From positions 1 to 64,000 of the forward strand of contig NZ_FOUB01000002.1 of the NCBI RefSeq assembly GCF_900114745.1: a stretch of 64,000 bases of DNA, read 5' to 3'. Below the pieces are notes generated by a model. It was not told where the DNA came from. It did not search any database and saw only the letters and a program-made list of their open reading frames with translations. A program made the translations under genes and the position numbers. The first letter of the stretch is position 1. Each line of letters opens with the position of its first letter. Below, piece by piece: positions 12,071 through 31,692 of this stretch. This stretch comes from Nitrosomonas communis. GTDB taxonomy: Bacteria; Pseudomonadota; Gammaproteobacteria; Burkholderiales; Nitrosomonadaceae.

Positions 12071-13032
12071 TTATTTAGTTGTTTCGGTTGTATCTTGCGC
12101 AGGTGTTATCAGCTGGTTTTTCATAGCAGCTTTGACAGTCACTCCATCAAGGTGGGGAGCAAACATTTCGATGAAGTGATAGACATAACTACGAATATAG
12201 CTATTACGGCTGATGCCGATACGCGTCGTACTGGGTTCAAACAAATGACTGGCGTCAATTGCGCGCAGATGTTTATCGCAGTGCGCGTCGAAAGCCATTT
12301 TTGCTAGAATACCAATACCTAAACCAAGTTCTACATAAGTTTTAATTACATCAGCATCTATTGCAGTGAGCACCACATTGGGAGTCAGCCCTTTAGATTC
12401 AAACGCTTGATTAATTTTTGAGCGACCGGTAAACGCGAAATCATAGGTAATGATGGGATATTGCGCAATCGCTTCTAATGTCAGCGGATGTTGTTTGAGC
12501 AGGGGGTGCTTGGGGGTAACAATAATACTACGATTCCACTGGTAGCAGGGAAGCATGACGAGTTCTTGAAAAACTCGATTGCCTCTGTGGCAATTGCTAA
12601 ATCAGCTTCGCCTGAAGAGACTAAAGTGGAGATTTGAGTTGGATTACCTTGACGCAATATGAGTTTAACTTTAGGGTATCTTTCGGTAAAACGTTTGATA
12701 ACGGGTGGAAGTGCATAACGTGCCTGGGTATGGGTCGTGGCAATAATCAGGGTGCCGCTCGCCTTGTCGCTAAATTCCTGACCAATTTGTTTCAAGTTTT
12801 CGACATCTCTGAGCATTCTTTCAGCAATTTCGACGATAACCTGTCCTGGGGGGGTTATTTTCACAATACGTTTGCCATTACGAACAAAAATATCTACGCC
12901 TAGCTCTTCTTCAAGAAGCTGAACTTGCCGGCTTATTCCTGGTTGTGATGTGTGCAGACTTTCGGCAGCTTTCGAAAGATTCAGATTTTGGTTAACGATT
13001 TCACGCAGATAGCGTAATTGTTGCAATCTCAT
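12071..13032 (-). pseudogene. cysB: CysB-type LysR regulator broken by a one-base frameshift
   Basis: Two overlapping frames together give a full CysB of about 320 residues. The first frame holds the N-terminal winged helix (MRLQQLRYLREIVNQNLNLS, then SQPGISRQVQLLEEELG) and the sensor domain up to EAIEFF. The second resumes at ELVMLPCYQWNR and runs through TYDFAFTGRSKIN and DADVIKTYVELGLGIGILA to the end. The break is at the A5 run 12569-12573 (T5 on the coding strand); one more T restores EFFQELVMLP. CysB senses N-acetylserine or O-acetylserine and activates sulfate assimilation genes; cysI starts 360 bp away and diverges. It may be a sequencing error or a recent mutation. Confidence 0.8.
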
Positions 13033-13392: not shown

Positions 13393-15486
13393 ATGAATTA
13401 TTTAACCGATCTCGCTAATGATGAGGAAATCGATTCATACGATCAATCATTGCAGGATTTTTTTGCGCAACGTATGGATATCGATCGTTTCACCGCTACC
13501 CGGTTGCAAATGGGAATTTATGGTCAACGTCAGGAAGGCGTCAATATGGTGCGTGTCAAAATTCCTGGGGGACGGTTAATTCCGATGCAGTTAAATGCAA
13601 TTGCAGACGTGCTGGAGAATTATGTGCAGCATGGCGAAGCGCATATTACCACTCGGCAGGATATTCAACTGCATTATGTGCCATTAGCAGATACACCGGC
13701 TGTGATGCGTCATTTGGCGAAAGGTGGGCTGACGACACGTGAGGCATGCGGAAACACCATACGTAATGTGACAGCTTGCCCTCTGACGGGTGTTTGCTCA
13801 CGTGAGCATACTGATATCAGTGTGCATCTCAATGGGATGGTTAAACATTTTCTGCGTAAACCTCTGAATCAGTTGATGCCGCGCAAATTCAAGATCAGTT
13901 TCTCTGGATGCGAGTCGGATTGTGCGCAAGGTATGATCCATGACCTTGGCGTGGTGGCAGTTAAACAGGGCACACGTTTTGGTTTTAAAGTGCTGGTAGG
14001 TGGAGGGCTTGGACATAAACCGCATGAGGCGATTGAGGTTGAATCGTTCATCGAAGAAAAGGACCTGCTATGGGTGATAGAAGCTGTGCTCACTATGCAC
14101 AACAAGTATTCTGATCGCAATAAACGAGCGAAATCGCGCATCAAGTTTCTGGTTGATAAATTTGGTGCAGATGGTTTTATCGAGAAGTATCGAGAAGAAC
14201 TCGCGCGTGTCAAAGAAGTACTGGCCGAGCAGGATTATCCCAAGGGTGTTTGGACAGGTGGTACGGAGAGCGAAGTGCCCGGTCCTGGCGCGCCCCGTGC
14301 GCTGTTTGCGCAAAAGCAAGCAGGATGGTATGTAGTGCCGGTCAGCGTACGCCTCGGACAATTGACTGCGGTTCAGATGCGTGGCATTGCCAGTATATTA
14401 AAACAATATGATTTGAAAGAGATTCGTACCACGCAAGATCAGAATTTGATATTGGTTGATGTGCCACAAAAATATATAGTGGAGATTCAGTCTGCGCTAG
14501 CGAATCTCGGTTTGGGTTTGCCCAAAGCAGGCGACGATGTCGTGGCTTGTCCAGGAACATCCACCTGCCGCTTGGGAATTACTTCCAGTCCGACTGTTGG
14601 AAGTAAATTATCGGGTGGGAGCGAGGATCTGCGCATTCGTGTTTCTGGCTGTCACAATGGCTGCGCTCAACCGGAAAGTGGTGATATAGGGATTTATGGT
14701 GAAGGTAAGCGCATGTTTGGTAAGTTGGTGCCGCATTATCAGATGTATTTCGGTGGGAATGGTATGGCTAATGGTGGTTTGGCTTTTAAAGGTCCATCGG
14801 TACCAAGCGCCCGTATCGAGCTGGCGGTAGAGCAAGTGAGATCAGCGTATGCCACAAACCGTGAAATGGGAGAAACGTTTTTTAACTGGACGCGACGAGT
14901 TGGTCAGAGCTATTTTGCTGAATTGCTAGCTGATGTGGTAGAAGTTAAGCAGGAGGATTTGCAGTCAGTGCTACGCGATCACGGTCAGAGAGATGATTTC
15001 AAGGTATTGCAACTGGGCGGCGGAGAATGTGCAGGTGCAAAACAGTTGCAGATTGGCACTGCTTTCTTTGATGCTGCAAACGAGCGCAATTATCGTAATG
15101 CACTAAAGTTTCAGCGTAAATTTGAGGATTCAGCCAAGTGTGCGGAAGAAATTGTCCGTTTGATCGGCCAAGGGTTGGCCCAGCTGGTGGGTGGTCAGAA
15201 ATATGAAAGCTTGATAGAGCAGGCAGAAGAACTACGACGTGTGTTGCCAACCAGATCTAACCTATCTCAACAACTAGCTAAACTTGCTCGAGATTTTGTG
15301 CGTCCTACAAATGAATTGACAGATGCCTTGTTGACTGAATGGTATGCGGAATTGGATGCATGGACGCTCGATGTGGCCGAGTTTTGTACCCATTTTGACA
15401 GCCAGCTCGACTTAACGGGTTCGCTGCCGCAGGCTATAGTTAAGCCATTGCAATTCCAGAAAATTTCGCAGTCAGCCGTAGTTTAA
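13393..15486 (+). CDS. cysI: Sulfite reductase, hemoprotein (CysI/SirA-type), with two cysteine clusters
   Basis: 697 residues. Two ferredoxin-like/sirohaem halves are seen. The second has the usual sirohaem-[4Fe-4S] ligands C386-x5-C392 and C420-x3-C424 (CPGTSTC, SGCHNGC). The first half also has C129-x5-C135 and C173-x3-C177 (CPLTGVC, SGCESDC), where most assimilatory enzymes have lost them. A helical tail of about 120 residues (570-697) follows. It reduces sulfite to sulfide with six electrons in the cytoplasm. No CysJ is present, so ferredoxin or another protein must donate electrons. It leads the operon cysI-cysH-cysD-cysN. A nitrite-reducing role is less likely given these neighbours. 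Confidence 0.85.
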   Translation: MNYLTDLANDEEIDSYDQSLQDFFAQRMDIDRFTATRLQMGIYGQRQEGVNMVRVKIPGGRLIPMQLNAIADVLENYVQHGEAHITTRQDIQLHYVPLADTPAVMRHLAKGGLTTREACGNTIRNVTACPLTGVCSREHTDISVHLNGMVKHFLRKPLNQLMPRKFKISFSGCESDCAQGMIHDLGVVAVKQGTRFGFKVLVGGGLGHKPHEAIEVESFIEEKDLLWVIEAVLTMHNKYSDRNKRAKSRIKFLVDKFGADGFIEKYREELARVKEVLAEQDYPKGVWTGGTESEVPGPGAPRALFAQKQAGWYVVPVSVRLGQLTAVQMRGIASILKQYDLKEIRTTQDQNLILVDVPQKYIVEIQSALANLGLGLPKAGDDVVACPGTSTCRLGITSSPTVGSKLSGGSEDLRIRVSGCHNGCAQPESGDIGIYGEGKRMFGKLVPHYQMYFGGNGMANGGLAFKGPSVPSARIELAVEQVRSAYATNREMGETFFNWTRRVGQSYFAELLADVVEVKQEDLQSVLRDHGQRDDFKVLQLGGGECAGAKQLQIGTAFFDAANERNYRNALKFQRKFEDSAKCAEEIVRLIGQGLAQLVGGQKYESLIEQAEELRRVLPTRSNLSQQLAKLARDFVRPTNELTDALLTEWYAELDAWTLDVAEFCTHFDSQLDLTGSLPQAIVKPLQFQKISQSAVV

Positions 15487-15510: not shown

Positions 15511-16218
15511 ATGGGTCAATCTGAAGTGGTACAAAAAATCGAGCAGTTACATGTTTTGCTTGCAAAGATACAGCAAGAATATGCACCCGTTGGGTTTGCC
15601 AATAGTTTTGGTGCTGAAGACATGGTGTTGACGGACTTGATTGCGCGACACTATCCGCGTATTACTATGTTTACGCTAGATACAGGGCGATTGCCACAAG
15701 AAACCTACAACCTGATGCAAGAAGTAAAAGATCACTATGGCGTTTCTCTCCAGGTATATTTTCCTGAGGCTGCGACAGTGGAAAGCTATATCGCCCAAAA
15801 TGGCCCTAATGGTTTTTATCAAAGTGTCGAGTTACGCACACGATGCTGTTATGTCCGCAAAGTTGAGCCACTTCGCCGCGCATTAGCGGGCAAGCGCGCC
15901 TGGATCACAGGAATGCGCCGTGAACAAGCAGTCACGCGAGATAGTTTGTCCATATCCACGTTTGATGCTGAAAACAACTTGCAGAAGTTTAATCCACTGT
16001 GTGAATGGAGCAATACCGAGGTATGGGCATATCTTAAGCAACATGAGGTACCTTACAACAAGTTGCATGATCGTTTTTATCCAAGTATTGGTTGTGCTCC
16101 TTGTACGCGTGCGATATCACCTGGAGAGGACATTCGATCTGGGCGCTGGTGGTGGGAGAATGCTGAATCCAAGGAATGCGGCTTGCATGTAGGTAAAGTC
16201 GCCTCGATTAATAAATAG
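15511..16218 (+). CDS. cysH: Adenylylsulfate (APS) reductase, assimilatory
   Basis: 235 residues of the CysH family. Cysteine pairs C112-C113 and C195-AP-C198 are the ligands of a [4Fe-4S] cluster, which marks the APS-using bacterial type rather than the cluster-free PAPS type. The catalytic cysteine is C223 in ECGLHVG near the C-terminus, and SFGAEDMV begins the PP-loop fold. It reduces APS to sulfite with thioredoxin. This fits the absence of an APS kinase (CysC) in the cluster. The gene follows cysI after 24 bp; no good ribosome binding site is visible. Confidence 0.92.
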   Translation: MGQSEVVQKIEQLHVLLAKIQQEYAPVGFANSFGAEDMVLTDLIARHYPRITMFTLDTGRLPQETYNLMQEVKDHYGVSLQVYFPEAATVESYIAQNGPNGFYQSVELRTRCCYVRKVEPLRRALAGKRAWITGMRREQAVTRDSLSISTFDAENNLQKFNPLCEWSNTEVWAYLKQHEVPYNKLHDRFYPSIGCAPCTRAISPGEDIRSGRWWWENAESKECGLHVGKVASINK

Positions 16219-16252: not shown

Positions 16253-17158
16253 ATGAGTCATCGAACTTTTACCCACTTAGATGCCTTAGAAAGCGAAGCG
16301 ATTCATATTATGCGGGAAGTGGCGGCCGAATGTACTAATCCTGCGTTATTATTCTCCGGAGGAAAAGATTCCATCGTTTTGCTCAGATTGGCTGAAAAAG
16401 CCTTTCGGCCAGGACGCTTTCCTTTCCCATTATTACATATTGATACCGAACACAATTTTCCCGAGGTAATTGAATTTCGCAATCATCGGGTCAAAGAGTT
16501 AGGTGAACGCTTGATTGTACGCAGTATGGAGGATTCTATCAAACAAGGTAGAGTCGTGTTGCGTTCTGAAAATCAAAGCCGTAATCCTTTTCAATCCATT
16601 ACCTTATTGGATGCGATTGCGGAATTACGTCTTGATGCTTGTATTGGTGGAGCGCGTCGTGATGAGGAAAAAGCGCGTGCCAAGGAACGTATATTTTCAT
16701 TTCGCGATGAATTTGGTCAGTGGGATCCTAAAAACCAGCGACCCGAACTATGGAGTCTTTACAATACACGCACCCATCCCGGAGAGAACATGCGTGTTTT
16801 CCCCATTAGTAATTGGACCGAACTCGATGTGTGGGAATATATCGAGCGCGAGCAACTGGAAGTGCCTTCTATTTATTTTGCTCATTGGCGTGAGGTTATT
16901 CCACGCGATAGCGGTTTGTTGCCAGTCTCACATCTGGTACAGCCCAGTGAGGGGGAGCGCATAGAAAAAATGATGGTGCGTTTTCGTACCGTAGGTGATA
17001 TGAGCTGTACCTGCCCAGTTATTTCTCAGGCTAAGAATGTAAATGAAATTATCGTCGAAACAGCCATGACACGTATAACTGAGCGTGGTGCAACGCGTAT
17101 GGATGATCAGACTTCAGAAGCCTCCATGGAATTACGCAAAAAAGAAGGGTATTTCTAA
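16253..17158 (+). CDS. cysD: Sulfate adenylyltransferase subunit 2
   Basis: 301 residues, the normal length. The ATP-pyrophosphatase loop FSGGKDS is at 34-40, followed by HIDTEHNFPEVIEFR and the GGARRDEEKARAKER signature. With CysN it forms ATP sulfurylase, which makes APS from sulfate and ATP in the cytoplasm. The ATG has an AGAAG-type site. It lies 34 bp after cysH and 68 bp before cysN, in one operon. Confidence 0.96.
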   Translation: MSHRTFTHLDALESEAIHIMREVAAECTNPALLFSGGKDSIVLLRLAEKAFRPGRFPFPLLHIDTEHNFPEVIEFRNHRVKELGERLIVRSMEDSIKQGRVVLRSENQSRNPFQSITLLDAIAELRLDACIGGARRDEEKARAKERIFSFRDEFGQWDPKNQRPELWSLYNTRTHPGENMRVFPISNWTELDVWEYIEREQLEVPSIYFAHWREVIPRDSGLLPVSHLVQPSEGERIEKMMVRFRTVGDMSCTCPVISQAKNVNEIIVETAMTRITERGATRMDDQTSEASMELRKKEGYF

Positions 17159-17226: not shown

Positions 17227-18498
17227 ATGTCAGAAGTTAAAAATGTAAGGCTTGATCGTGCCGAATTGTTGCGTTTTATCACTGCGGGTAGCGTGGATGA
17301 CGGAAAAAGCACGTTGATTGGGCGTTTATTGCATGACTCCAAATCGATTTTTGAAGATCAGTTGAGCTCTATTGCCCGTACTTCAAATAAGCGCGGAATG
17401 CAAGCGGTTGATCTTTCATTGTTGACTGATGGTTTGCAAGCGGAGCGGGAGCAAGGAATAACGATTGATGTGGCCTATCGTTATTTTGCAACGCCAAAAC
17501 GTAAGTTCATCATTGCGGATACCCCCGGCCATGAGCAATATACCCGAAATATGGTTACGGGTGCTTCCACTGCTAATCTGGCGATTATACTGATTGATGC
17601 ACGCAAGGGTGTGCTTACGCAATCTCGTCGCCATGCTTATCTGGCCAGTTTGGTAGGGATTCCTCATTTAGTCGTAGCCATTAATAAAATGGATTTGGTG
17701 GGATATTCACGCGAGGTATACGAGCGAATTCGTAATGATTTTGCTGCTTTTGCCCAAGGACTCCGTTTAAGCAATATTGAATATATTCCCATGTCTGCTT
17801 TGAACGGGGATATGGTGGTGGAAAGAGGCGACAAGTTGACTTGGTATGAAGGTAGGACATTGATGGATTTGCTGGAAAATATCGATATTGAGCATGATGT
17901 CAATACCGATGATTTCCGCTTCCCTGTGCAATGGGTTTGTCGCCCACAAACTGAAGAATTGCATGATTTCCGGGGATACATGGGACGAATTGAATCAGGC
18001 TCGATTCGTGTGGGTGATGAAGTGGCGATTCTCCCATCTGGATTGTCCTCACGCATTAAAGAGATCCTTTTGTACAAGCATTCTTTTGAGGATGCATTTG
18101 CACCCCAATCTGTCACATTAACTATTGAAGATCACTTAGATATTTCTCGGGGGGATATGTTGGTAAAAGCTGGTGAGCAGCCACAAATCAAGAAGGAATT
18201 TGCTGCGATGCTATGCTGGCTATCTGAACAGCCACTTGATTCTCGCCGTAAATACATCGTTAAGCATACGACGCGTATGATCAAAGGAATGGTGAATCAG
18301 ATTGACTATCGTGTGGATGTCAACACGCTCACTCATGAGACGGCAGATTCCTTGAAAATGAACGATATCGCGCGGGTGGTGATGAAAGTGCAGCAGCCAA
18401 TCGTATTTGACGATTATGCTCATAATCGTGGCACCGGTAGTTTCATTATTATTGATGAAACGAGCAACAATACCGTCGCAGCCGGCATGATCTGCTAG
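17227..18498 (+). CDS. cysN: Sulfate adenylyltransferase subunit 1 (GTPase)
   Basis: 423 residues. GTPase motifs are G1 GSVDDGKST at 21-29, DTPGHEQYTRNM (G3) and NKMD (G4), followed by two EF-Tu-like beta barrels. It couples GTP hydrolysis to APS synthesis by CysD. The chain ends after the barrels, so there is no fused APS kinase, consistent with the APS-type CysH. It is the last gene of the cys operon; the next gene starts 161 bp on. Confidence 0.95.
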   Translation: MSEVKNVRLDRAELLRFITAGSVDDGKSTLIGRLLHDSKSIFEDQLSSIARTSNKRGMQAVDLSLLTDGLQAEREQGITIDVAYRYFATPKRKFIIADTPGHEQYTRNMVTGASTANLAIILIDARKGVLTQSRRHAYLASLVGIPHLVVAINKMDLVGYSREVYERIRNDFAAFAQGLRLSNIEYIPMSALNGDMVVERGDKLTWYEGRTLMDLLENIDIEHDVNTDDFRFPVQWVCRPQTEELHDFRGYMGRIESGSIRVGDEVAILPSGLSSRIKEILLYKHSFEDAFAPQSVTLTIEDHLDISRGDMLVKAGEQPQIKKEFAAMLCWLSEQPLDSRRKYIVKHTTRMIKGMVNQIDYRVDVNTLTHETADSLKMNDIARVVMKVQQPIVFDDYAHNRGTGSFIIIDETSNNTVAAGMIC

Positions 18499-18659
18499 AT
18501 ACGCTTTCTGGAAATAAGCAGAATCTTCCGATGGCGAGAAAAGTAGCGCCGGTATCTATTTTTTTATTCAAAATTAGCTTGATCCAGTCTTAAGCAATTG
18601 ACTTCATTTTTCACCCTGAGTCCTCTATTTTTTTGCTATAAAAATATCGATAAACAATT

Positions 18660-21600
18660 ATGACAAATTCAGCATTAATGCTTAGCAAACCATCAGTAGA
18701 AGCTATTATCCCTGATCTTAAATTTGGTATGGCTTTTGCAGATTTGTATTGCCGTGATGGTTTAGTCAAGCTGGATCAAGCATTTCTTGACTTTCTGCAA
18801 GCAGGCGATGCTGGTCTGTGTAAGCGCTTGGATCTCGCGCGCCTTCATCCGGATAGCTTGGCACCCAAAGATGAATCTGCTTTTCTGATTGAGCTTGCTC
18901 CGTGGATGGAGGATTTCATTGCACAGTTATTTGGTATAGACAAGGAAGTGCGTGCGCTTGCAGCGCGTCATCATGAACTCGCGCCGCTGTATTTTTGCAA
19001 GCGGCAATTTGTGCAACGTCGTGCCAAAACTAAGGTAAGCGATGAAGTATTACCAACAATAGATGCTATTGCCCTAGAAAAGAAACTCGAAAAGGAGTTT
19101 GGCGAGCCTTTTTCTGAGTTAGTGTTTGCAACTCACGTGGCCCGATGGTTAGAGGATGAAGCAAACAACGCAGTGCGCTTAAATGATGCGTTGCACTATG
19201 CCGCTTGGGCATTACGCACGCATGAAGGGCAAGCGCATACTCAGCAAGGCGTGTTATTCAAATCTCCAGCAAAACTAGATTATTTGCACTTGTTGTCAAT
19301 GGTGACCGATGATCATGCAGGCTATACTGTCCACCGTCTTGAGCACCTTCGTCAGCGTGAAGGATTTTCTCTGACTGATAAGGGGACTGACCTGGTGGGC
19401 GCTTTGGATGAGACCAATTATTGCATCTGGTGTCATGAGCAAGGGAAGGATTCCTGCTCAAAAGGGTTGAAAGTCAAACCTAAAAATGCCGAAGAACCCA
19501 TTACTTTCAAGAAAAGCGAGTTAGGAGCGTTACTCACGGGTTGCCCCTTGGAAGAGCGGATCTCGGAATTCCATAAACTCAAGTCGCAGGGAGTGGCGAT
19601 TGGTAGCTTAGCAATGATTGTACTGGATAACCCAATGTGCGCAGGCACGGGACATCGTATTTGTAATGATTGCATGAAATCCTGCATTTATCAGAAGCAA
19701 GATCCGGTAGATATTCCGCAAGCAGAGACTCGCACACTTAAAGATGTGCTCGAATTACCTTGGGGATTTGAGATATACAGCTTGCTTACGCGCTGGAATC
19801 CACTTAATTTACGCAGGCCGCTGCCCAGACCAGCTACTGGTAAGAAAGTTCTGGTGGTGGGAATGGGGCCTGCTGGCTATACGCTGGCACACCATTTGAT
19901 GAACGATGGTCATACCGTGGTGGGGGTGGATGGTCTCAAGATTGAGCCATTACCTGCAGAGATTTCCGGAGTCGGTCTGCATGGAGAGCGTGTATCTTTT
20001 AATGCTATTTACGATACCAACATGCTCCGTGTTGATCTGAATGAACGTATCCCAGGTGGTTTTGGTGGAGTGGCCGAATACGGTATCACTGTGCGCTGGG
20101 ATAAGAATTTTCTTCAATTAATTCGTCTATTATTGGAGCGACGACCAGAATTTGCGCTTTATGGTGGGGTACGCTTTGGCGGTACTATGACAGTAGATGA
20201 TGCGCTGGCTTTGGGTTTTGATCATATCGCGCTAGCCGCAGGCGCAGGGCGTCCAACTATTCTTGATTTACCGAATGGTTTGGCGCGTGGTGTGCGCGCA
20301 GCTTCTGATTTTTTGATGGCACTTCAGCTATCCGGCGCAGCACAGGCTGATTCTATCGCTAACGTGCAGTTGCGCTTGCCTGTTGTAGTGATTGGCGGCG
20401 GGCTTACTGCGATCGATGCAGCTACGGAAGCTTTGGCTTACTATCCGGTCCAGGTAGAGAAATTTTTACAGCGTTATGAGTTACTTGCTTCAGAACAGGG
20501 GGAAACTGCAGTTCGCAATCGCTGGGATGAAGAGGAGCGGGAAATCGCTGAGGAGTTTTTGGCACACGCCCGAGCTATTCGTGCCGAGCGTGCACAGGCA
20601 GCCAAGGAAGAGCGAGCACCAGATATTCTGAAGTTATTGCAATCATGGGGTGGGGCTACCATTGCGTATCGTAAGCGATTAATTGATAGTCCTTCTTATA
20701 CGCTGAATCATGAAGAAGTTGAGAAAGCAATGGAGGAAGGTATCTGGTTTGCTGAAGGGCTGACGCCGTTACGAATCGATGTCGATCAATGGGAGCATAC
20801 CCAGTCGATTAGATTTTCTGTTCAAACAATAGATGAGGCAGGGCGATGGCAAAAAATCCGGGAAGTTGATTTGCCCGCCCGTGCTATTCTGGTCGCCGCT
20901 GGCACTCAGCCGAATACCGTCCTTGCCAGAGAAGATGAGAAATATTTCAAATTAAATGGACGCTATTTTGCAGCTTGCGATGATCAGGGGAATTCAGTTA
21001 GCTTGACAAAGGGTAATCCTAAGCCAGAAACACCAGCGGTCTTGCTGAGTCGCTGCGACGATGGGCGTTTTATCAGTTTTTTTGGAGATTTGCACCCGTC
21101 TTATTCAGGTAATGTGGTCAAAGCTATGTCAAGCGCCAAACAGGGTTATCCAATTGTCAGCCGCGTGCTTGAGCGTGTTATGCCGGCTTCGACTCAATTA
21201 AATGCCCAGTTTTTTGCTGAAATGAATCATCAATTGAGACCGACTGTTCATAAAGTGGAAAGACTGACATCTAATATTATCGAAGTGGTCGTGCGCGCAC
21301 CTATGGCAGCACGACATTTCCATCCCGGGCAATTTTTCCGCTTCCAAAATTTTGCGACATTGGCTTCCACGATAGGAAACACCCGATTAGCGATGGAGGG
21401 CATCGCATTGACAGGGGCATCGGTAGATATTTCGAGTGGACTTATCTCTCTGATTGCGCTCGAAATGGGTGGTTCAGCGAATTTGTCTACCTTGCTTAAG
21501 CCTGGCGAACCCGTTGTGCTGATGGGACCTACTGGTACGCCTACCGAAATTCTGCCAAATGAGACGCTCGTCCTAGTGGGTGGAGGACTTGGCAATGCGG

Positions 21601-22196
21601 TGCTGTTTTCGATTGGCGCTGCTGCACGTGCTGCAGGATGCGGGGTTTTGTATTTTGCTGGCTACAAAAAACTGGCTGATCGTTATAAGGTTGCTGAAAT
21701 TGAGGCCGCGGCAGACACCGTTGTGTGGTGTTGTGATGAAGCCCCTGGATTTGAACCTTCCAGGCCAGGGGATTTTAATTTCGTCGGAAATATTGTGCAG
21801 GCAATGGTGGCTTATGGCAGCGGTGCACTCGGCGCACGGCCTATATCCTTGGCAGATGCTGATCGTATCATCGCGATTGGTTCTGATCGAATGATGGCGG
21901 CTGTGGGTTATGCGCGTCATCATCAGTTGCAGCCATATCTGAAAAAAAATCACTTTGCTATTGGCTCTATCAATTCACCGATGCAATGTATGATGAAGGA
22001 AATTTGTGCACAATGTTTGCAGCCGCATAAAGATCCTGAAACGGGCGAGATTACTTACGTTTTTTCATGTTTCAATCAAGATCAGCCATTAGATTGGGTT
22101 GATTTTAGTAGTTTATCGTCACGCTTGCGCCAAAATAGCGTACAGGAAAAATTAACCAGTCAATGGTTAGGCCGTTGCCTGAAAAATTTAAATTAA
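18660..22196 (+). CDS. Large iron-sulfur flavoprotein, NfnB-NfnA-like fusion (NAD(P)H oxidoreductase)
   Basis: 1178 residues. The N-terminal 390 residues are helical and carry two cysteine groups: C255-IW-C258-x7-C266 and C327-x7-C335-x2-C338-x3-C342, suited to Fe-S clusters as in the GltD/NfnB N-terminal domain. A GltD-like flavin domain starts with VVGMGPAGY at 401 and has a second Rossmann motif, VVVIGGGLTAID. From about 860 the chain is like PyrK/NfnA: FNR-type FAD region (HFHPGQFFRFQN), nucleotide region (VLVGGGLGNAVLFS) and a C1110-x5-C1116-x2-C1119-x17-C1137 group for [2Fe-2S]. It probably moves electrons between NAD(P)H and ferredoxin. The exact reaction is unknown; neighbours are cysteine genes and pnt. 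Confidence 0.75.
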   Translation: MTNSALMLSKPSVEAIIPDLKFGMAFADLYCRDGLVKLDQAFLDFLQAGDAGLCKRLDLARLHPDSLAPKDESAFLIELAPWMEDFIAQLFGIDKEVRALAARHHELAPLYFCKRQFVQRRAKTKVSDEVLPTIDAIALEKKLEKEFGEPFSELVFATHVARWLEDEANNAVRLNDALHYAAWALRTHEGQAHTQQGVLFKSPAKLDYLHLLSMVTDDHAGYTVHRLEHLRQREGFSLTDKGTDLVGALDETNYCIWCHEQGKDSCSKGLKVKPKNAEEPITFKKSELGALLTGCPLEERISEFHKLKSQGVAIGSLAMIVLDNPMCAGTGHRICNDCMKSCIYQKQDPVDIPQAETRTLKDVLELPWGFEIYSLLTRWNPLNLRRPLPRPATGKKVLVVGMGPAGYTLAHHLMNDGHTVVGVDGLKIEPLPAEISGVGLHGERVSFNAIYDTNMLRVDLNERIPGGFGGVAEYGITVRWDKNFLQLIRLLLERRPEFALYGGVRFGGTMTVDDALALGFDHIALAAGAGRPTILDLPNGLARGVRAASDFLMALQLSGAAQADSIANVQLRLPVVVIGGGLTAIDAATEALAYYPVQVEKFLQRYELLASEQGETAVRNRWDEEEREIAEEFLAHARAIRAERAQAAKEERAPDILKLLQSWGGATIAYRKRLIDSPSYTLNHEEVEKAMEEGIWFAEGLTPLRIDVDQWEHTQSIRFSVQTIDEAGRWQKIREVDLPARAILVAAGTQPNTVLAREDEKYFKLNGRYFAACDDQGNSVSLTKGNPKPETPAVLLSRCDDGRFISFFGDLHPSYSGNVVKAMSSAKQGYPIVSRVLERVMPASTQLNAQFFAEMNHQLRPTVHKVERLTSNIIEVVVRAPMAARHFHPGQFFRFQNFATLASTIGNTRLAMEGIALTGASVDISSGLISLIALEMGGSANLSTLLKPGEPVVLMGPTGTPTEILPNETLVLVGGGLGNAVLFSIGAAARAAGCGVLYFAGYKKLADRYKVAEIEAAADTVVWCCDEAPGFEPSRPGDFNFVGNIVQAMVAYGSGALGARPISLADADRIIAIGSDRMMAAVGYARHHQLQPYLKKNHFAIGSINSPMQCMMKEICAQCLQPHKDPETGEITYVFSCFNQDQPLDWVDFSSLSSRLRQNSVQEKLTSQWLGRCLKNLN

Positions 22197-22411
22197 ATAT
22201 AGAAGTGGCGTGGCTTTTCATAGTGTTTTTTCATCTTGAATATATATGGCAATAACGCGATAACGTATTAATAGGTTCACAGATAAATTATGTATAAGTT
22301 TCAATCAAAGCAATGTATCTATCAAGATTCATTTATAATCACGCATTCGAGAAAAGTTATGCAAAGCATTTGGTATTTTCAAGTTTGAATAGAAGATAAG
22401 GGAGATAATCG

Positions 22412-23539
22412 ATGCACATAGGCATACCTGCAGAAATTTATGCGGGAGAAACACGTGTAGCAGCTACGCCGGAGACGGTTAAAAAATATACTGCCAAGGG
22501 TTTTCACACTGTTCTGGTTCAATCTGGCGCAGGTGCTGGTGCAAGTATTCCCGATGCTGCCTACCAAGAAGCGGGTGCAGTGATCGTTAACGATGTATCG
22601 CAATTGTATAGTCAAGCACAAATTATCCTGAAGGTGCGTAGCCCCGGATCTGATGAAGTGGCGCTAATACGCAAGGATGCAATTCTGATTGGTTTGCTGT
22701 CACCCCATCAAATGGAAGGAATCGAGGTGCTCGCTAAACATGGCTTGACTGCGTTTGCCATGGAGAAACTACCGCGTATTTCACGTGCACAAAGTATGGA
22801 TGTCCTGTCTTCTCAAGCGAATATTGGTGGATATAAAGCAGTCATTATGGCTGCCAATGTTTATCAGAAATTCTTTCCCATGCTGATGACAGCTGCAGGA
22901 ACCGTTAAAGCAGCAAGAGTATTAATACTGGGAGCAGGGGTAGCCGGTTTGCAGGCGATTGCCACGGCTAAACGTCTAGGAGCAGTGATAGAAGCTTTTG
23001 ATGTACGCCCTGCAGTTAAGGAGCAAGTTGAAAGCTTGGGTGCTAAATTTGTTGAAGTTCCGTTAACGGACGAAGAAAAAGCGAAGGCTGAAACAGCCGG
23101 CGGCTATGCAACTGAAATGTCGGATGATTACAAACGTCGGCAAGGTGAATTAATTCATCAAAGAGCTATTGCGGCTGATATTGTCATCACGACTGCTTTG
23201 ATTCCCGGGCGTCCAGCGCCAGTTTTAATAAGAGAAGAAACGGTTCAAGCGATGAAACCTGGTTCGGTGATAGTGGATATGGCGGTGGAGGCAGGCGGAA
23301 ACTGCCCCTTGACAGAGCTGAATAAAACTGTGGTAAAACATGGCGTTCATCTCATTGGTATTGCTAATCTTCCGGGTCTGGTTGCCGCAGATGCAAGCGC
23401 GCTCTATGCACGTAATGTTATGAATTTTCTTAATTTAATGCTTGATGCCAAGAGTGGGGAGCTCAAAATTAACCAAGAAGATGAGATTATTGCCGGAACA
23501 TTGGTATGTTCTGGGGGACAGATTGTCAAAAAAGCATAA
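22412..23539 (+). CDS. pntA: NAD(P) transhydrogenase subunit alpha part 1
   Basis: 375 residues, covering domain I with the NAD(H) site (LGAGVAGLQAIATAKRLGA). The ATG follows AGGGAG at a good distance. It is the soluble cytoplasmic hydride-donor domain; in this split form the membrane part is encoded by the next gene. Together with PntAb and PntB it uses the proton gradient to reduce NADP+ with NADH. The reductant would serve sulfite reduction and biosynthesis in an autotroph. Confidence 0.95.
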   Translation: MHIGIPAEIYAGETRVAATPETVKKYTAKGFHTVLVQSGAGAGASIPDAAYQEAGAVIVNDVSQLYSQAQIILKVRSPGSDEVALIRKDAILIGLLSPHQMEGIEVLAKHGLTAFAMEKLPRISRAQSMDVLSSQANIGGYKAVIMAANVYQKFFPMLMTAAGTVKAARVLILGAGVAGLQAIATAKRLGAVIEAFDVRPAVKEQVESLGAKFVEVPLTDEEKAKAETAGGYATEMSDDYKRRQGELIHQRAIAADIVITTALIPGRPAPVLIREETVQAMKPGSVIVDMAVEAGGNCPLTELNKTVVKHGVHLIGIANLPGLVAADASALYARNVMNFLNLMLDAKSGELKINQEDEIIAGTLVCSGGQIVKKA

Positions 23540-23612: not shown

Positions 23613-23921
23613 ATGATCGGTGAAATTGATCCAACGATAATTCATCTCACGGTATTCGTGTTGGCGGTTTTTGTTGGCTATCACGTGGTCTGGAATGTAA
23701 CCCCTGCGTTACATACACCGCTGATGTCAGTGACTAATGCCATTTCAAGTATTATTTTAGTAGGCGCAATGCTGGCTGCAGGGCCTGCTGAAACCGATTG
23801 GGGGGTCTGGCTGGGGGGAGCGGCTGTAGTTCTTGCTTCCATCAATGTATTTGGTGGATTTCTCGTCACACAACGCATGCTGGAAATGTTCAGAAAAAAA
23901 GATAAAAAAGGAAGCGCCTAA
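23613..23921 (+). CDS. pntAb: NAD(P) transhydrogenase subunit alpha part 2
   Basis: 102 residues, with three or four membrane helices (for example [18 protein letters not shown]) and the [13 protein letters not shown] end typical of this subunit. GAGGAG precedes the ATG. It is part of the proton channel of the transhydrogenase. Its stop codon is immediately followed by the pntB start (TAA-ATG). Confidence 0.95.
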
Positions 23922-25307
23922 ATGTCTGCTGATTTGATTGCTCTCGCTTATCTGGTTGCAGCGGTTTTTTTCATTCTGGCGCTGAAAGGGCTTAGTTCCC
24001 CCCTTTCCGCCCGGCGTGGTAATTTGTTTGGAATGGTTGGGATGACGATAGCCGTTGGCACTACTTTGACCATTACCCAGAATTGGACATTGATACTCGG
24101 TTGTATCGCAATCGGAGCGATAATAGGTTCTATCGTAGCGCAGCGCGTCCAGATGACAGCAATGCCGGAACTGGTTGCTTTCATGCACTCGCTGGTAGGT
24201 TTGGCCGCAGTATTCATCGCCATTGCCGCTGTTAATAATCCTGTTTCATTCGGCCTGCCTGAGATGTTGCCAGCTGGTAGCAAGCTGGAGTTGTTTCTGG
24301 GAACGTTTATTGGTGCCATGACCTGGTCTGGCTCAGTCATTGCCTTTCTTAAATTGTCTGGCCGCATGAGTGGCGCTCCAGTTGTTTTCACTGGACAACA
24401 CATGATCAATCTAACGTTAGCCTTAGTTATGATTGGTTTTGGTTTATGGTTCTTTTTTAGTGAGATGACTAACTGGTCAGCATTTATCGTCATGACAACT
24501 ATTGCTTTCTTGCTCGGATTCCTCATTATTATTCCTATTGGGGGAGCAGATATGCCGGTGGTCATTTCCATGCTAAATTCCTATTCAGGCTGGGCTGCGG
24601 CAGGTATCGGCTTTTCGCTAGGTAATCCGATGCTGATTATTGCTGGTTCATTGGTGGGCAGCTCTGGTGCAATTTTGTCGTATATCATGTGCAAAGCCAT
24701 GAACCGTCCTTTTCTTTCAGTCATATTGGGTGGCTTTGGGAGTGAAGGCAGCAGCCAAGCTGCCGGGGATGGAACACAGAAAACCTATCGCAGTGGAAGT
24801 GCTGAGGATGCTGCCTTCCTGATGAGTAATGCTGATAGCGTAATTATTGTTCCGGGATATGGTCTGGCCGTTGCTCGTGCGCAACACGCAGTCAATGAAC
24901 TTGCAGAGGTTTTGCATGAAAAAGGTGCGAATGTTCGTTTTGCCATCCATCCTGTCGCGGGTCGTATGCCAGGGCATATGAATGTACTGCTTGCCGAAGC
25001 CGAAATACCCTATGAACAGGTTCTGGAGATGGAAGAGATCAATAGCGACTTTTCTAATACTGATGTGGTACTGGTACTGGGAGCAAATGACGTGGTCAAT
25101 CCGGCTGCAAATGTGCCGGGCAGCCCCATCTATGGTATGCCTATTTTAGAGGCGCACAAGGCTCGTACCGTAATAGTCGTCAAACGTAGTATGGCGGCTG
25201 GTTACGCTGGCCTTGATAATGATTTGTTTTATATGGACAAGACTATGATGGTGTTTGGAGATGCCAAAAAAGTAGTAGAGGATATGGTGAAAGCGGTTAA
25301 CACCTAG
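23922..25307 (+). CDS. pntB: NAD(P) transhydrogenase subunit beta
   Basis: 461 residues. About nine membrane helices fill the first 270 residues. The C-terminal domain III binds NADP(H), with VIIVPGYGLAVARAQHAV and the VVLVLGANDVVNPAA motif. Length and order match the family. It completes the three-gene pnt operon and ends 66 bp before a strong shared terminator. Confidence 0.96.
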   Translation: MSADLIALAYLVAAVFFILALKGLSSPLSARRGNLFGMVGMTIAVGTTLTITQNWTLILGCIAIGAIIGSIVAQRVQMTAMPELVAFMHSLVGLAAVFIAIAAVNNPVSFGLPEMLPAGSKLELFLGTFIGAMTWSGSVIAFLKLSGRMSGAPVVFTGQHMINLTLALVMIGFGLWFFFSEMTNWSAFIVMTTIAFLLGFLIIIPIGGADMPVVISMLNSYSGWAAAGIGFSLGNPMLIIAGSLVGSSGAILSYIMCKAMNRPFLSVILGGFGSEGSSQAAGDGTQKTYRSGSAEDAAFLMSNADSVIIVPGYGLAVARAQHAVNELAEVLHEKGANVRFAIHPVAGRMPGHMNVLLAEAEIPYEQVLEMEEINSDFSNTDVVLVLGANDVVNPAANVPGSPIYGMPILEAHKARTVIVVKRSMAAGYAGLDNDLFYMDKTMMVFGDAKKVVEDMVKAVNT

Positions 25308-25450: not shown

Positions 25451-26011
25451 TCAGGCAGAAACAAGAACGATATCCGGCTCAATTGTTTTTAACAATCGCT
25501 CAATTCCTCTGAGCGTTCCAGAAATCGAGCTAGGGCAAGTGCCACACGCCCCTTGATAATGGATTCTAAGAATATTCCCTTCAAGGTTTAATATATGAAG
25601 ATCTCCGCCATCATTTTGTAAGTAAGGACGTACTTCCTCATCTAATAATATATTGATACGCTCCAGTCGCTGCTGATCTTCTGGACTCAAGTTAGCCAAT
25701 ATTTCATTTGCTGCTGTTACCGTCTCAGCGGATTGCGCATGAGCCGCTGGTGCAGCCCGGATCGGATCAGCGACAGCGCGTGCGAGATCTTGCCAGTCAG
25801 CTTCCCCATCTTGAGTAATCGTAATCCAGCGGTCAACATAAAAGACATTGGTAACATGATCTATTTCAAACAAAGATGATGCCAATGGATCATCCTTTGC
25901 TTGCTCAGCACTGTCATATGAATGACTTACACCCCAGGTAAGAGGTTCTTTTAGAACAAACTTCAAAGCATTTGGGTTAGGGGTGCCTTCTATTTCAGCT
26001 ATTTTTGGCAT
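25451..26011 (-). CDS. nfu: Nfu-type iron-sulfur carrier
   Basis: 186 residues. The first 90 match the Nfu N-terminal domain (EGTPNPNALKFVL). A variable linker follows, then the NifU C-terminal domain with YLQNDGGDLHI and the cluster motif CGTC. Nfu proteins carry [4Fe-4S] clusters from the scaffold to target enzymes. It is the last gene of the leftward suf operon, 54 bp after sufU. The domain order N-Nfu/NifU-C is the one seen in alphaproteobacteria and mitochondria. Confidence 0.9.
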   Translation of the reverse strand: MPKIAEIEGTPNPNALKFVLKEPLTWGVSHSYDSAEQAKDDPLASSLFEIDHVTNVFYVDRWITITQDGEADWQDLARAVADPIRAAPAAHAQSAETVTAANEILANLSPEDQQRLERINILLDEEVRPYLQNDGGDLHILNLEGNILRIHYQGACGTCPSSISGTLRGIERLLKTIEPDIVLVSA

Positions 26012-26065
26012 TTTGTTTTAACTATTTTGGTAGTGTTTTTTTTATGCTCTATCTAGTTTTTTGGG

Positions 26066-26548
26066 CTAGGCCTTACTGCTAGCAGCATGGATTGAATCTT
26101 CTGCTGTTTCAGTCGATACGATAGCATTAGAATTCAATGCAGCTTGCAAGGTATGCCAAGGCAGAATTGCGCATTTGACCCGTGTAGGTAGATCACGTAC
26201 TCCAGCAAAAACAGCTAGTCTCCCAAGGTGGTGAGGTCCCGAAAGATCAAGATTACCCACTACCATTTCCCGAAATTCTGTTATTAAAGTTTCTGCTTCT
26301 GACCGTGATTTCCCTTTGACAGTAGCTGTCATCATTGAAGCAGATGCTTTACATATAGCGCATGATTCTCCATGAAAAGCAATACGATCAATGTGCTCTC
26401 CTTCCACATGCAACGCAAGATCAATGCGATCACCGCATAAGGGATTGTGCCCTACCGCATGGTGATTTGCATTATCAAGCGTACCGTAGTTGCGGGGCTT
26501 GCGATTATGATCAAGAATAACTTCCTGATAAATTGATTTTAAATTCAT
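26066..26548 (-). CDS. sufU: SufU-type Fe-S assembly protein
   Basis: 160 residues of the IscU/SufU family. Three conserved cysteines are seen in NPLCGDRI, GESCAICKAS and RVKCAILPW. The stretch between the second and third (near VVGNLDLSGPHHLGRLAVF) is longer than in IscU, as in the SufU subgroup. SufU accepts sulfur from SufS through a zinc-bound cysteine; in other systems SufE has that role and no sufE is here. The start shares one base with the sufS stop (TAATG). Confidence 0.9.
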   Translation of the reverse strand: MNLKSIYQEVILDHNRKPRNYGTLDNANHHAVGHNPLCGDRIDLALHVEGEHIDRIAFHGESCAICKASASMMTATVKGKSRSEAETLITEFREMVVGNLDLSGPHHLGRLAVFAGVRDLPTRVKCAILPWHTLQAALNSNAIVSTETAEDSIHAASSKA

Positions 26549-27810
26549 TATGAGAAAACCTTTTGTATAGAATGAATACCTTCTACCAAAGTATCAACTT
26601 CTGCCTTAGTATTATAAAAAGCAAAGGAGGCGCGTGAGGTAGCAGGTATTTTGAAGCGCTGCATAATGGGTTGTGCGCAATGGTGACCCGTGCGTACAGC
26701 GATTCCTTCTTGATTAAGCAGTGTTCCCACATCATGAGGGTGAACGCCATCAATGATGAATGACAAGACAGCAACTTTAGTCCGTGTATTACCAATAATG
26801 TGGACACCGGGTATAGTTATGATCTGTTCGGTTGCGTAATTAAGCAGTTCATGCTCATAAGCTGCAATTGCATCTAACCCGATCTTCGATAAATACTCTA
26901 TTGCGGCACCAAAGCCAATCGCAGCAGCAATAGGAGGAGTGCCTGCTTCAAATTTATACGGAATGGTGTTGTAGGTCGTTTTTTCAAAGGTTACCGAAAC
27001 AATCATATCACCCCCTCCTTTGAAAGGCTGCATGGATTCTAGCAACTTGGCTTTACCATAGAGGATGCCTATTCCTGTTGGGCCGCATAATTTGTGACCA
27101 GAAAAAGCATAGAAATCACAATCCAGATCTTGCACATCGACTTTCATATGGGGAGCAGCTTGTGCGCCATCGATTAAAACCGGTACACCTTGCTGGTGGG
27201 CAAAAGCAATCATGTTTTTAATCGGATTGATGGTACCTAGCGCATTCGATACATGCGTTAATGCAACAAAGCGAGTTCGAGGATTAAATAGCTTTTCATA
27301 TTCATCAACTAATAGCTCACCTGCGTCATTGATCGGTACGACGCGAATGGTTGCACCTTTTTCTTCCGCTAGCATTTGCCATGGCACAATGTTTGAGTGA
27401 TGCTCAAGGTTCGTTAAAATAATTTCATCACCACTCTGAATAAACTTGCGACCATAACCATGCATCACTAGATTAATGGCATCTGTTGTACCGCTGGTAA
27501 AGATAATTTCTCTATCTTCACGTGCATTGATAAAGTGCTGTAATGTGCGTCGTGCCGTTTCATATTCCCGTGTGGCTATTTCAGATAAATAGTGCACTGC
27601 ACGATGGATATTGGCATGCTGAGTTGTTTGATATCGTATCAGACGATCAATGACTGATTGAGGCATTTGGCTTGATGCAGCGTTATCCAGATAAACAAGT
27701 GGCTTATCGTTTACTTTGAGATTGAGAATGGGAAAATCAGCACGATATCGTGCTGCCAACTCTGGAGTTGGAGAGGTATTCATGTCTAGTAAAGCATCAA
27801 CAATTTTCAT
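26548..27810 (-). CDS. sufS: Cysteine desulfurase SufS
   Basis: 420 residues, group II desulfurase. The PLP lysine lies in FSGHKLCGPTG and the catalytic cysteine in TGHHCAQP, with the short group II loop. It takes sulfur from cysteine and hands persulfide to SufU. The ATG starts 3 bp after the sufD stop; a second in-frame ATG nine codons on (MNTSPTPELA) is possible, as neither has a clear ribosome binding site. Confidence 0.95.
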   Translation of the reverse strand: MKIVDALLDMNTSPTPELAARYRADFPILNLKVNDKPLVYLDNAASSQMPQSVIDRLIRYQTTQHANIHRAVHYLSEIATREYETARRTLQHFINAREDREIIFTSGTTDAINLVMHGYGRKFIQSGDEIILTNLEHHSNIVPWQMLAEEKGATIRVVPINDAGELLVDEYEKLFNPRTRFVALTHVSNALGTINPIKNMIAFAHQQGVPVLIDGAQAAPHMKVDVQDLDCDFYAFSGHKLCGPTGIGILYGKAKLLESMQPFKGGGDMIVSVTFEKTTYNTIPYKFEAGTPPIAAAIGFGAAIEYLSKIGLDAIAAYEHELLNYATEQIITIPGVHIIGNTRTKVAVLSFIIDGVHPHDVGTLLNQEGIAVRTGHHCAQPIMQRFKIPATSRASFAFYNTKAEVDTLVEGIHSIQKVFS

Positions 27811-27813
27811 GTT

Positions 27814-29109
27814 TCAGGATATCTGTGTTCTTGCAAGGACGATTTCTTCGAGTTGCCTTTTAAGGGAAGAAATCGGAATACGGTCAATAACTTCGCCGCC
27901 AAATGCATAGGTTAGTAAATTACGTGCTGTCAAATCAGACAGACCACGGCTCTTTAAGTAGAAAATTTCTTCTTTATCGAGTTGACCTACTGTCGCGCCA
28001 TGCGCGCATTTGACATCATCAGCGAATATTTCAAGTTGTGGCTTGGTATCAATGCGGGCTTTATTGGTCAGTAAAAGATTGCGGCTTAATTGTGCTGAAT
28101 CCGTTAACTGAGCATGCGGGCGTACCATGATTTTGCCATTAAATACCCCATGTGCCATGCTATCAACGATACATTTATGGAGCTGGCGACTCTTGCCATG
28201 CGGTTGCGCATGATCAATAAAGGTATGGGTATCGGCGAGTTGACGTTCAGAAATCAATACCAACCCATCTGCAGCGCATTCAGCCCCTTCACCTGACAAT
28301 ATCACATTCAGGTTATAACGCGAAATATAAGCTCCTAACGTTATGCTGACTGAATGGTACTGACTTGCATGAGCAAGGGATACCGTACAATTCCCTATAT
28401 GAAAAGCCTGCTGATTATCCCGCTGAACACGAATATGATTGATGTGCGCACTATCGGCAAGATTCATTTCAACGATCGAGTTCGTCACATAAGAAGCTTC
28501 TTCAGTGGTGATATAATCCTCAATAATTGTCGCATGACTTCCCGCTTCGGCAATCAGTAGACAGCGCGGGTAACTGGTAACTTCAGTTTGCCTGGATATA
28601 AACAGCAAATGAATAGGCGTCGTTACTGACTTATTCGCCGGAATAATAATACAGGCGCTATCACGAAGAAAAGCAGTATTTAATGCCGTGAAAACATCAT
28701 TCTCAAATTCTGCCAGCTGACCAAGGTAGCGTGCAATCGTATCCCCATGAGTAGGAAGGAGAGATGATAAATTGCCTATAATTGCACCTGCATTATGAGC
28801 AATGTTTGATAACTCGGGGGCAAATTGACCATCTACAAATACCAGCCGACAGCTGGCTTCTTCGAGATAATAATGTTCAATATCCGAGAGCTGTACTTTG
28901 AATGTTGACTGGGCTACCGGATAAGGCAGGCGACTAAGGGGTGAAATATCAGTAAAACGCCATTCTTCATCTTGAGTTGTCGGCATCCTAAGTGCGCCAG
29001 CACTATCCATCGCGTTTGCACGAAGCTGATCAAGCCACGATGAAGTCGATGGTTTCTGCCATGATTGAACAAGATGGTCGAGGTAGCTATGGCTAGTTGC
29101 TGTACTCAT
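27814..29109 (-). CDS. sufD: Fe-S assembly protein SufD
   Basis: 431 residues. It has the right-handed beta-helix core of SufB/SufD and the family's late motif [20 protein letters not shown]. SufD partners with SufB and SufC2 in the scaffold complex and helps iron entry. Its start overlaps the sufC stop by four bases, which suggests coupled translation. Confidence 0.94.
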
Positions 29110-29903
29110 GGCCGTACTCCAGCTGTCTTACCACGGTCGTCAGCATTGATCCAATCATAACCATGAGCTTCCAGTTCCTTGGCAAGCTCTTTACCGCTTG
29201 TTTTGATGATTCGTCCAGCTTCCATTACATGAACATAATCAGGCACAATATAATCAAGCAAGCGTTGGTAATGCGTCACCAAAATAGTCGCATTATCTTT
29301 ATTGGTAAGCTGATTCACGCCATTAGCTACAATCCTAAGCGCATCAATATCGAGCCCTGAATCTGTTTCATCCAGAATAGCGAGTATTGGCTCAAGTAAT
29401 GCCATTTGTAAAATTTCATTACGTTTTTTTTCTCCACCTGAGAACCCTTCATTGACGCTACGATCCAGGAAGTCTGGACTCATTTCGAGTAATTTCATTT
29501 TTTCGCGTACAAAATCATCAAATTCAAGCGGGTCAAGCTCTTCTTTGCCACGCTGGGACTGAACTGTGTTGTATGCTAACCGCAAGAATTGATTATTAGC
29601 GACGCCTGGTATTTCAATTGGATATTGAAATGCAAGAAACACACCGGCACGAGCACGTTCTTCAGGTTCAAGATCAAAAAGATTTTGATTGTTGAAGATA
29701 ATCGTTCCAGCAGTTACCTCGTAAGCAGGGTGGCCAGCAAGAATTTTGGCAAAAGTACTTTTACCAGATCCATTGAGTCCCATGATGGCATGGACTTCTC
29801 CACTCTTGACCGTGAGATCAACACCTTTAAGTATCTCAATACCATTTACATTTGCATGTAAGCCACGGACTTCAAGGAGTGTTTTACTGTTCTGATTGAT
29901 CAT
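29106..29903 (-). CDS. sufC: Fe-S assembly ATPase SufC
   Basis: 265 residues of ABC ATPase. Walker A is GLNGSGKST, the signature is [12 protein letters not shown], and Walker B is [12 protein letters not shown]. It drives shape changes of the SufB-SufD pair. Four-base overlaps with sufB upstream and sufD downstream show one tightly coupled operon. Confidence 0.96.
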
Positions 29904-31336: not shown

Positions 31337-31338
31337 TT

Positions 31339-31692
31339 TTATATATTTTCCTTAGACTCTTCAGGTATTTTGAGGCTGAAGCTCTCACCACAGCCACATG
31401 TATTTCCAATATTTGGATTGTTAAACTTGAAAGTACTATTTAGACCTTCTTTGACAAAATCTATCTCTGATCCATCAAAATAAGTTAGATTATCGCGTTT
31501 TAAGACTATTCTTGCGTTATGCGACTCGAAGAGCTGATCTTCTTCTTGCATTTCATCGACATAATCAAAGATATAAGTAAAACCAGAGCATCCCGATTTT
31601 TTTATATCTATCCGTAGAGCCAATCCTTTACCACGTTTTGTTAGTTGTTGCTGGATTTGTTTGGCTGCACGTTCAGTCAATGTGATCGACAT
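31339..31692 (-). CDS. sufA: A-type Fe-S carrier (SufA/IscA family)
   Basis: 117 residues of the HesB/IscA family. Three conserved cysteines are present: one in KSGCSGFTY and two in the late CGCGESF motif. A-type proteins receive clusters from the scaffold and pass them to targets, and may bind iron. It lies between iscR and sufB in the operon. IscA, ErpA and SufA cannot be separated from sequence alone; position favours SufA. Confidence 0.9.

Follow-up and report, generated by a model that had tools for sequence, protein, structure and literature searches.

What does a large flavoprotein do between the cys operon and the pnt operon of Nitrosomonas communis, and which electron carriers does it connect? 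The window analysed here is a stretch of 64,000 nucleotides (NCBI RefSeq assembly GCF_900114745.1, contig NZ_FOUB01000002.1, positions 1 to 64,000, forward strand), in which one gene encodes this protein as a single chain of 1178 residues. The observation is real: the protein is a conserved, widespread variation on the architecture of Nfn, the NADH-dependent ferredoxin:NADP+ oxidoreductase, and its link to sulfur metabolism recurs more broadly than the window alone shows. On balance we favour the view that it is a one-chain NfnAB relative moving electrons between NAD(P)H and ferredoxin. The reading that survives comparison with the alternatives is probably that of a ferredoxin reductase of Nfn-like type with a link to sulfur metabolism.

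A single-chain flavoprotein with Nfn-like domains and conserved ligands

The gene is one open reading frame (ORF) with an ATG start and no internal stops. Its parts were delimited as follows.

18660..22196, + strand: single-chain Nfn-like flavoprotein gene, 1178 residues (ORF, family searches, alignment, structure model)
18717..19394, + strand: N-terminal helical domain, residues about 20-245, without relative in the Pfam or PDB fold search
19407..19745, + strand: two putative [4Fe-4S] ligand sets, C255, C258, C266, E356 and C295, C335, C338, C342 (clusters assigned by analogy with Nfn)
19836..21179, + strand: GltD/NfnB-like FAD and NAD(P)H-binding core, residues about 393-840; R479 falls close to where NfnB has its flavin N5 arginine
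21216..22178, + strand: NfnA/PyrK-like FAD and NAD(P)H-binding domain, residues about 853-1173 (PDB sequence and fold matches)
21987..22070, + strand: [2Fe-2S] ligand group C1110-x5-C1116-x2-C1119-x17-C1137 (alignment)

Pfam searches identified Pyr_redox_2 at residues 395-594 (1.8e-12), and Fer4_20 at residues 293-356 stayed sub-threshold (19.3 bits versus a cut-off of 25.8). Sequence matches among solved structures included 5vj7 (Xfn), the alpha and beta subunits of NfnI, a GltD and the 4ylf NfnAB chains, among others; PDB 5jca_S aligned to residues 865-1021 in the NfnA/PyrK-like part. The AlphaFold model, which the initial annotation had proposed to compare with Nfn, reached a predicted local distance difference test score (pLDDT) of 79.1 and a predicted template modelling score of 0.83, with pLDDT under 50 around several ligand cysteines. 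Model residues 199-839 matched subunit L of NfnI (5jfc_L; Z 22.6, root-mean-square deviation (rmsd) 3.2, 437 residues aligned), followed within 2 Z units by Xfn and GltD chains. Residues 853-1173 matched NfnA (4ylf_A; Z 17.8, rmsd 2.6, 267 aligned), and the modelled C-terminal part gave a TMt of 0.84 against 5jca_S. For the N-terminal domain (about 225 residues, model pLDDT 82.5) Pfam held no relative and the best PDB fold match had an E value of only 2.2; a missing relative need not mean a new fold.

An alignment was built from 32 sequences chosen from 81 (L034 was left out; L, G and C numbers are our handles for loci, genomes and contigs), in which the 31 homologues were 64-80% identical to the window protein. 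Residues C255, C258, C266, C295, C335, C338, C342, E356 and R479, as well as E913, T918, C1110, C1116, C1119 and C1137, were identical in all 32. Because the ligand residues are invariant, the N-terminal and C-terminal cysteine groups are more than a chance arrangement. C327, by comparison, is variable and is a cysteine in 11 of the 32. Four distant members (L101, L106, L107 and L108) keep the same cysteines, E356 and R479, and E913 and T918 do not occur in all four. The single chain, the two N-terminal cysteine groups, the GltD-type core and the C-terminal PyrK-type part with four cysteines, all of which had been described in the initial annotation, are thereby confirmed, and its proposal of a fused Nfn-like architecture is supported by the PDB sequence matches and by both folds.

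Sulfite reductase and transhydrogenase genes lie near the gene in most Nitrosomonadaceae loci

The genes flanking the Nfn-like gene in the window are the following.

13393..15486, + strand: NirA-like siroheme sulfite/nitrite reductase, 697 residues (family search)
15511..16218, + strand: CysH, adenylylsulfate (APS)/phosphoadenylylsulfate (PAPS) reductase (family search)
16253..17158, + strand: CysD (family search)
17227..18498, + strand: CysN (family search)
22412..23539, + strand: PntAa, NAD(P) transhydrogenase alpha, part a (family search)
23613..23921, + strand: PntAb, an ORF named from its position between PntAa and PntB
23922..25307, + strand: PntB (family search)

CysN ends 161 bp before the Nfn-like gene and PntAa begins 215 bp after it, so that the position between the two operons was given correctly from the start. 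A scan of 18400-22500 placed no promoter-like or terminator-like site in either intergenic gap flanking the gene; over the whole scan there were 4 promoter-like sites versus 7.1 in shuffled sequences, and 5 terminator-like sites versus 3.8. The window is Nitrosomonas-like; among the matches listed, the locus of Nitrosomonas sp. Nm34 comes closest, being 97% identical.

Upstream of the cys operon, a LysR-type regulator gene at 12071-13032 (- strand) is present as two overlapping ORFs of 161 and 183 residues, as if broken. At L030 a single LysR-like ORF of 318 residues, recognized by eye, stands between cysJ and cysH. Just past pnt, on the opposite strand (25451-31692, -), lies a SUF-type Fe-S assembly cluster comprising Nfu, NifU_N, a SufS-type aminotransferase, two SufB/D proteins, an ABC ATPase and Fe-S_biosyn.

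Eighty loci out of at least 587 confirmed relatives were surveyed for genes within the stretch of sequence around each. Twenty-nine of them (L002-L028, L030 and L040) were counted, on the basis of record title and sequence identity, as Nitrosomonadaceae and 51 as others. In 25 of the 29 Nitrosomonadaceae loci, the gene run that contains the Nfn-like gene also includes a sulfite reductase (SiR) gene upstream of it. In 13 it was of the window type (65-92% identity) and lay 3.2-3.9 kb upstream; in 12 it was of another type (27-30%), accompanied by a DUF934 protein and lying 2.2-5.9 kb upstream. One further locus, L030, carries cysJI divergently at the Nfn-like gene, a layout also found in genome G400, and three had no SiR within the examined stretch. 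CysN was less than 450 bp from the Nfn-like gene in 20 of the 29 loci and 1.9-2.3 kb away in five. The pnt genes followed downstream in 20 of the 29.

Distribution and gene neighbourhood outside the family

The Nfn-like gene occurs in 71 of 250 genomes drawn from the order and in 13 of 299 genomes drawn from the phylum. Matches were present in 12 plasmid records, of which one, Acidithiobacillus caldus pTcM1, was full-length (44%). By eye only, pyrD-like and folD-like genes were noticed upstream of some copies.

Among the 51 loci outside Nitrosomonadaceae, pnt was downstream in four (L052, L058, L059 and L065), as opposed to 20 of 29 within the family; therefore, the pnt adjacency is not general for this protein family. 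In the initial annotation it had been taken as a sign of a role in NADPH balance. An SiR gene lay directly upstream, 121 bp before the Nfn-like gene, at L076. This was the sole such case, the other 50 loci having no SiR within the examined stretch. At L101, which belongs to a 1.9 Mb genome from outside the class, SiR, a CysG-like protein, CysH, CysD, CysNC and the Nfn-like gene form a tight run.

A 7Fe ferredoxin gene, fdxA, was present within the stretch in seven of the 51 loci (L045, L053, L054, L055, L080, L060 and L064), and was found just upstream of the Nfn-like gene in L060, L064, L108 and L117. On pTcM1, the Nfn-like gene is preceded by genes for an AprA-like flavoprotein, a small 4Fe-4S protein, a HEAT protein and FdxA. 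The same AprA-like cluster, here together with ABC transporter genes, is found again in betaproteobacteria.

At L108 (5591-12483) this cluster comprises the AprA-like flavoprotein (PRK08275), the small 4Fe-4S protein, the HEAT protein, FdxA, an NMT1-type ABC transporter and the Nfn-like gene. It was also seen in L043 (without FdxA), L045, L053-L055, L080, L117, L118, L120, L121, L124, L130, L131 and L133. In genomes G353, G511 and G538 the Nfn-like gene occurs twice, and one copy adjoins an AprA-like gene.

In the order draw, the AprA-like gene was found in 15 of the 250 genomes, and 10 of these 15 had the Nfn-like gene compared with 61 of the other 235 (p 0.0017). Unexpectedly, the two genes were 1.6-5.4 kb apart on one strand in all 10 genomes with both. 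After de-duplication (L080 = L119, L043 = L132), 20 distinct AprA-like clusters remained; FdxA was present in 14 of 15 with the Nfn-like gene versus one of five without it (Fisher p 0.0049). Both p values make the evidence look stronger than it is, because the genomes share ancestry and several belong to one genus, among them three of the five lacking the gene. The AprA-like enzyme may act on sulfur compounds, as its sub-cut-off score to the APS reductase alpha model would suggest.

The source genome itself has one FdxA over cut-off and no RnfC over cut-off. PF00175 gave two matches in it, namely a CysJ-like protein and a 2Fe-2S reductase, and hence no classic Fpr was found.

A proposed role as an Nfn-like ferredoxin reductase linked to sulfur metabolism

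Several lines of evidence support the view that the protein moves electrons between NAD(P)H and ferredoxin. Nfn subunits are among its top solved relatives both by sequence and by fold. All eight putative [4Fe-4S] ligands, and likewise the four cysteines of the C-terminal group, are invariant and are kept in the four distant members. FdxA adjoins the gene in some lineages, and SiR lies upstream of it in most Nitrosomonadaceae loci and in L076 and L101. Finally, the source genome has FdxA and lacks, within the searches described above, both RnfC and a classic Fpr.

By analogy with Nfn, the GltD-like FAD would most likely be the entry site for NADPH. Electrons bound for NAD(H) would then pass through the C-terminal part, with its [2Fe-2S] cluster and second FAD, and those bound for ferredoxin through the two [4Fe-4S] clusters. 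Gene neighbourhood points to the 7Fe ferredoxin FdxA as the most likely partner. In the window, reduced ferredoxin would feed the NirA-like sulfite reductase of the adjoining cys operon, among other ferredoxin-dependent steps, and the adjoining PntAB would maintain the NADPH supply.

Other results weigh against this picture. Among the genes listed, most of the 51 loci outside Nitrosomonadaceae have no recognized sulfur or ferredoxin gene adjoining the Nfn-like gene. Genome G289, of 1.39 Mb, has the gene at L107; CysJ gave no match there, and the 19.9 kb examined contained no cys gene. Against the model for APS reductase alpha (cut-off 557) the AprA-like protein reached a score of 312.9 bits, below that cut-off, and its best model is a fumarate reductase/succinate dehydrogenase flavoprotein family. 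In the source genome, a draft, FdxA is encoded on a different contig. A search for a thioredoxin-reductase-like ferredoxin reductase gave eight matches there, one of them over cut-off, and a 298-residue FAD protein on contig C107 may be such an enzyme. Moreover, genomes lacking CysJ are not enriched for the gene, as set out below.

Alternative explanations

The alternatives are not all exclusive of the Nfn-like reading. One is a special case of it: a non-bifurcating NADPH:ferredoxin oxidoreductase, in which the C-terminal flavin domain would be no more than a second entry for NADH. We regard this as a possibility to be taken seriously, albeit tentatively. The available part of one report (PMC9365771) describes CAC0764 of Clostridium acetobutylicum, which is about 40% identical to NfnB, NADP-specific and with no bifurcation shown. 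That report provides a stand-alone relative of NfnB whose activity is limited to electron exchange between NADPH and ferredoxin, so bifurcation should not be assumed for the window protein. The [2Fe-2S] set, with four cysteines and a spacing of x5, also differs from the Asp-Cys3 set of Nfn, to which the available part of a 2019 review (PMC6405883) ascribes a high potential. On the other hand, the ligands for the full Nfn cofactor chain are conserved, and a plain reductase would hardly need them.

The protein could instead be a general housekeeping ferredoxin reductase, serving Fe-S assembly or haem, with sulfur genes as neighbours by chance or lineage habit. The scattered neighbourhoods and the retention of the gene in the 1.39 Mb genome would suit such a role, as would the SUF genes 3 kb downstream on the other strand of the window, which tblastn finds at that place only in L002 and L004. 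It is nevertheless rather unlikely, as two distinct sulfur-type contexts recur and the AprA-like and Nfn-like genes keep together in all order genomes with both.

Still less probable is a dedicated donor of the adjoining sulfite reductase that replaces CysJ. The recurrent SiR upstream of the gene in Nitrosomonadaceae, L076 and L101 would agree with it, and at E 0.001 CysJ gave no match in three genomes, G063 (L101), G345 (L076) and G102. The initial annotation had reported no CysJ and suggested that the protein supplies electrons to a CysJ-less SiR. The first statement is true of the cys operon in the window and wrong for the genome, because contig C127 (63745-66916) encodes a CysJ-like flavoprotein (478 bits to TIGR01931, under the cut-off of 668.15) beside CysI (727 bits to TIGR02041, under the cut-off of 756.55). 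As to the second, an association with SiR does recur outside Nitrosomonadaceae, but a role as stand-in for a missing CysJ is not supported. In L030 and G400 cysJI even shares the locus with the Nfn-like gene, which stays constant while the SiR of the locus comes in three kinds, and 50 of the 51 other loci have no SiR in the stretch examined.

The source genome has both kinds of SiR, the NirA-like enzyme in the window and CysI with the CysJ-like protein on C127.

The expected co-occurrence with CysJ-less genomes was not observed either. CysJ was called in the 250-genome order draw from a TIGR01931 score of at least 290 bits, a threshold of our own below the curated cut-off, and the counts span genomes irrespective of SiR presence (with TIGR02041, which gives low scores to the second SiR type, 43 of 250 had a match at 1e-15). 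By this measure, CysJ was present in nine of 71 genomes with the Nfn-like gene and in 16 of 179 without it (p 0.36). Dropping four CysJ calls in frames of 1386-1862 residues gave 9/71 versus 12/179 (p 0.13), and with G476 and G559 dropped as well, their frames being 1129 and 1122 residues long, the counts were 7/71 versus 12/179 (p 0.43). In a set of 63 genomes with the Nfn-like gene, which we made up from 50 of the 80 loci together with 13 genomes from the phylum draw, six had CysJ at 290 bits or more. The CysJ-replacement reading thus fails on the CysJ elsewhere in the source genome and on the lack of enrichment in CysJ-less genomes, counted irrespective of SiR presence, an outcome that the initial annotation itself had named as refuting; a CysJ substitute was rejected as a candidate on these grounds and on the cysJI genes at the locus in L030 and G400.

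A soluble NADH/NADPH transhydrogenase that works without ferredoxin and acts in balance with PntAB would account for the two nucleotide-binding flavin domains and for pnt downstream in Nitrosomonadaceae, but is very unlikely given that both [4Fe-4S] ligand sets are invariant and that pnt adjoins the gene in so few other loci.

Implications for ferredoxin reduction in aerobes

Taken as an Nfn-like ferredoxin reductase, the protein touches on the source of low-potential reduced ferredoxin in aerobic chemolithotrophs and on what feeds their ferredoxin-type sulfite reductases. This question is now approachable through a widespread protein (71 of 250 genomes) with invariant cofactor sites and neighbourhood ties to FdxA and to two sulfur-type clusters. 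Electron-bifurcating Nfn enzymes are known mostly from anaerobes. The available part of the 2019 review counts one single aerobe with an Nfn homologue (PMC6405883). If the window protein bifurcates, bifurcation would be common in an order of largely aerobic bacteria. It is conceivable, although we hold it doubtful, that the flavoprotein and PntAB could act in aerobic nitrifiers as a two-enzyme ferredoxin reductase driven by the proton motive force, in which 2 NADPH would be bifurcated to NADH and reduced FdxA and PntAB would use the proton gradient to convert the NADH to NADPH again. Such a couple would substitute for Rnf and would mean electron bifurcation in aerobes. In the open-licence literature we found no paper on the Nfn-like fused protein, none that mentions PRK06567 and, for Nitrosomonas, none dealing with sulfite reductase, the transcriptome and sulfate assimilation together. 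Overall, what the initial annotation observed is confirmed, and its interpretation is partly supported.

Comparison with known systems

With CysJ the window protein shares just a proposed role, that of electron donor to sulfite reductase; unlike CysJ, it had no flavodoxin or CysJ family match (Pfam up to E 1, NCBIfam up to E 0.001). Its best NCBIfam model was NF005128 (PRK06567; putative bifunctional glutamate synthase subunit beta/2-polyprenylphenol hydroxylase), whose best stretch spans the N-terminal domain (residues 20-728 in 3-690), but the score of 813.1 bits does not exceed the cut-off of 1072.

The available part of PMC6405883 distinguishes three kinds of fused Nfn, one of which ('Pattern C') carries a C-terminal PyrK part. 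We equate this kind, provisionally, with NCBIfam PRK12779, judging by domain order and length. Like it, the window protein has a GltD-like followed by a PyrK-like part in one chain. Unlike it, the window protein lacks the Asp that four aligned PRK12779 comparators (L109-L112) retain (VDATGMCGAC), and its score to PRK12779 was 85.3 bits, far under the cut-off of 1519.

The closest parallel is NfnAB/NfnI itself, with which the protein shares GltD-like and PyrK-like parts, two FAD-type domains, seven cysteines and a glutamate for two [4Fe-4S] clusters, and the fold matches given above (Z 22.6 and 17.8). It differs from NfnAB in being one chain, in the C-terminal position of the PyrK-like part and in an additional N-terminal domain of about 245 residues. 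The NfnB and NfnA motifs, and an N5 arginine in all Nfn homologues, are given in the available part of PMC6405883. At R479, hidden Markov model alignments match the N5 arginine of NfnI with a one-residue gap, whereas ungapped MAFFT alignment places the Phe of the comparators there. In the a-FAD strand, ERxPxT in Nfn, E913 and T918 are invariant, but R and P are replaced by G and A, and the distant members differ. The first cluster motif reads C255-x2-C258-x7-C266-x28-C295-P, compared with RCx2Cx4Cx3CPV in Nfn. For the [2Fe-2S] cluster, Nfn has an Asp ligand (Asp-Cys3, DGTGMCGxCRx10CV; PMC6405883, available part), whereas the window protein has C-x5-C-x2-C-x17-C, with no Asp there and a Cys one residue further out. 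Because two tested features, the spacing of the first-cluster motif and the Asp-Cys3 set, differ in this way, the protein is built like Nfn, yet we do not file it as Nfn.

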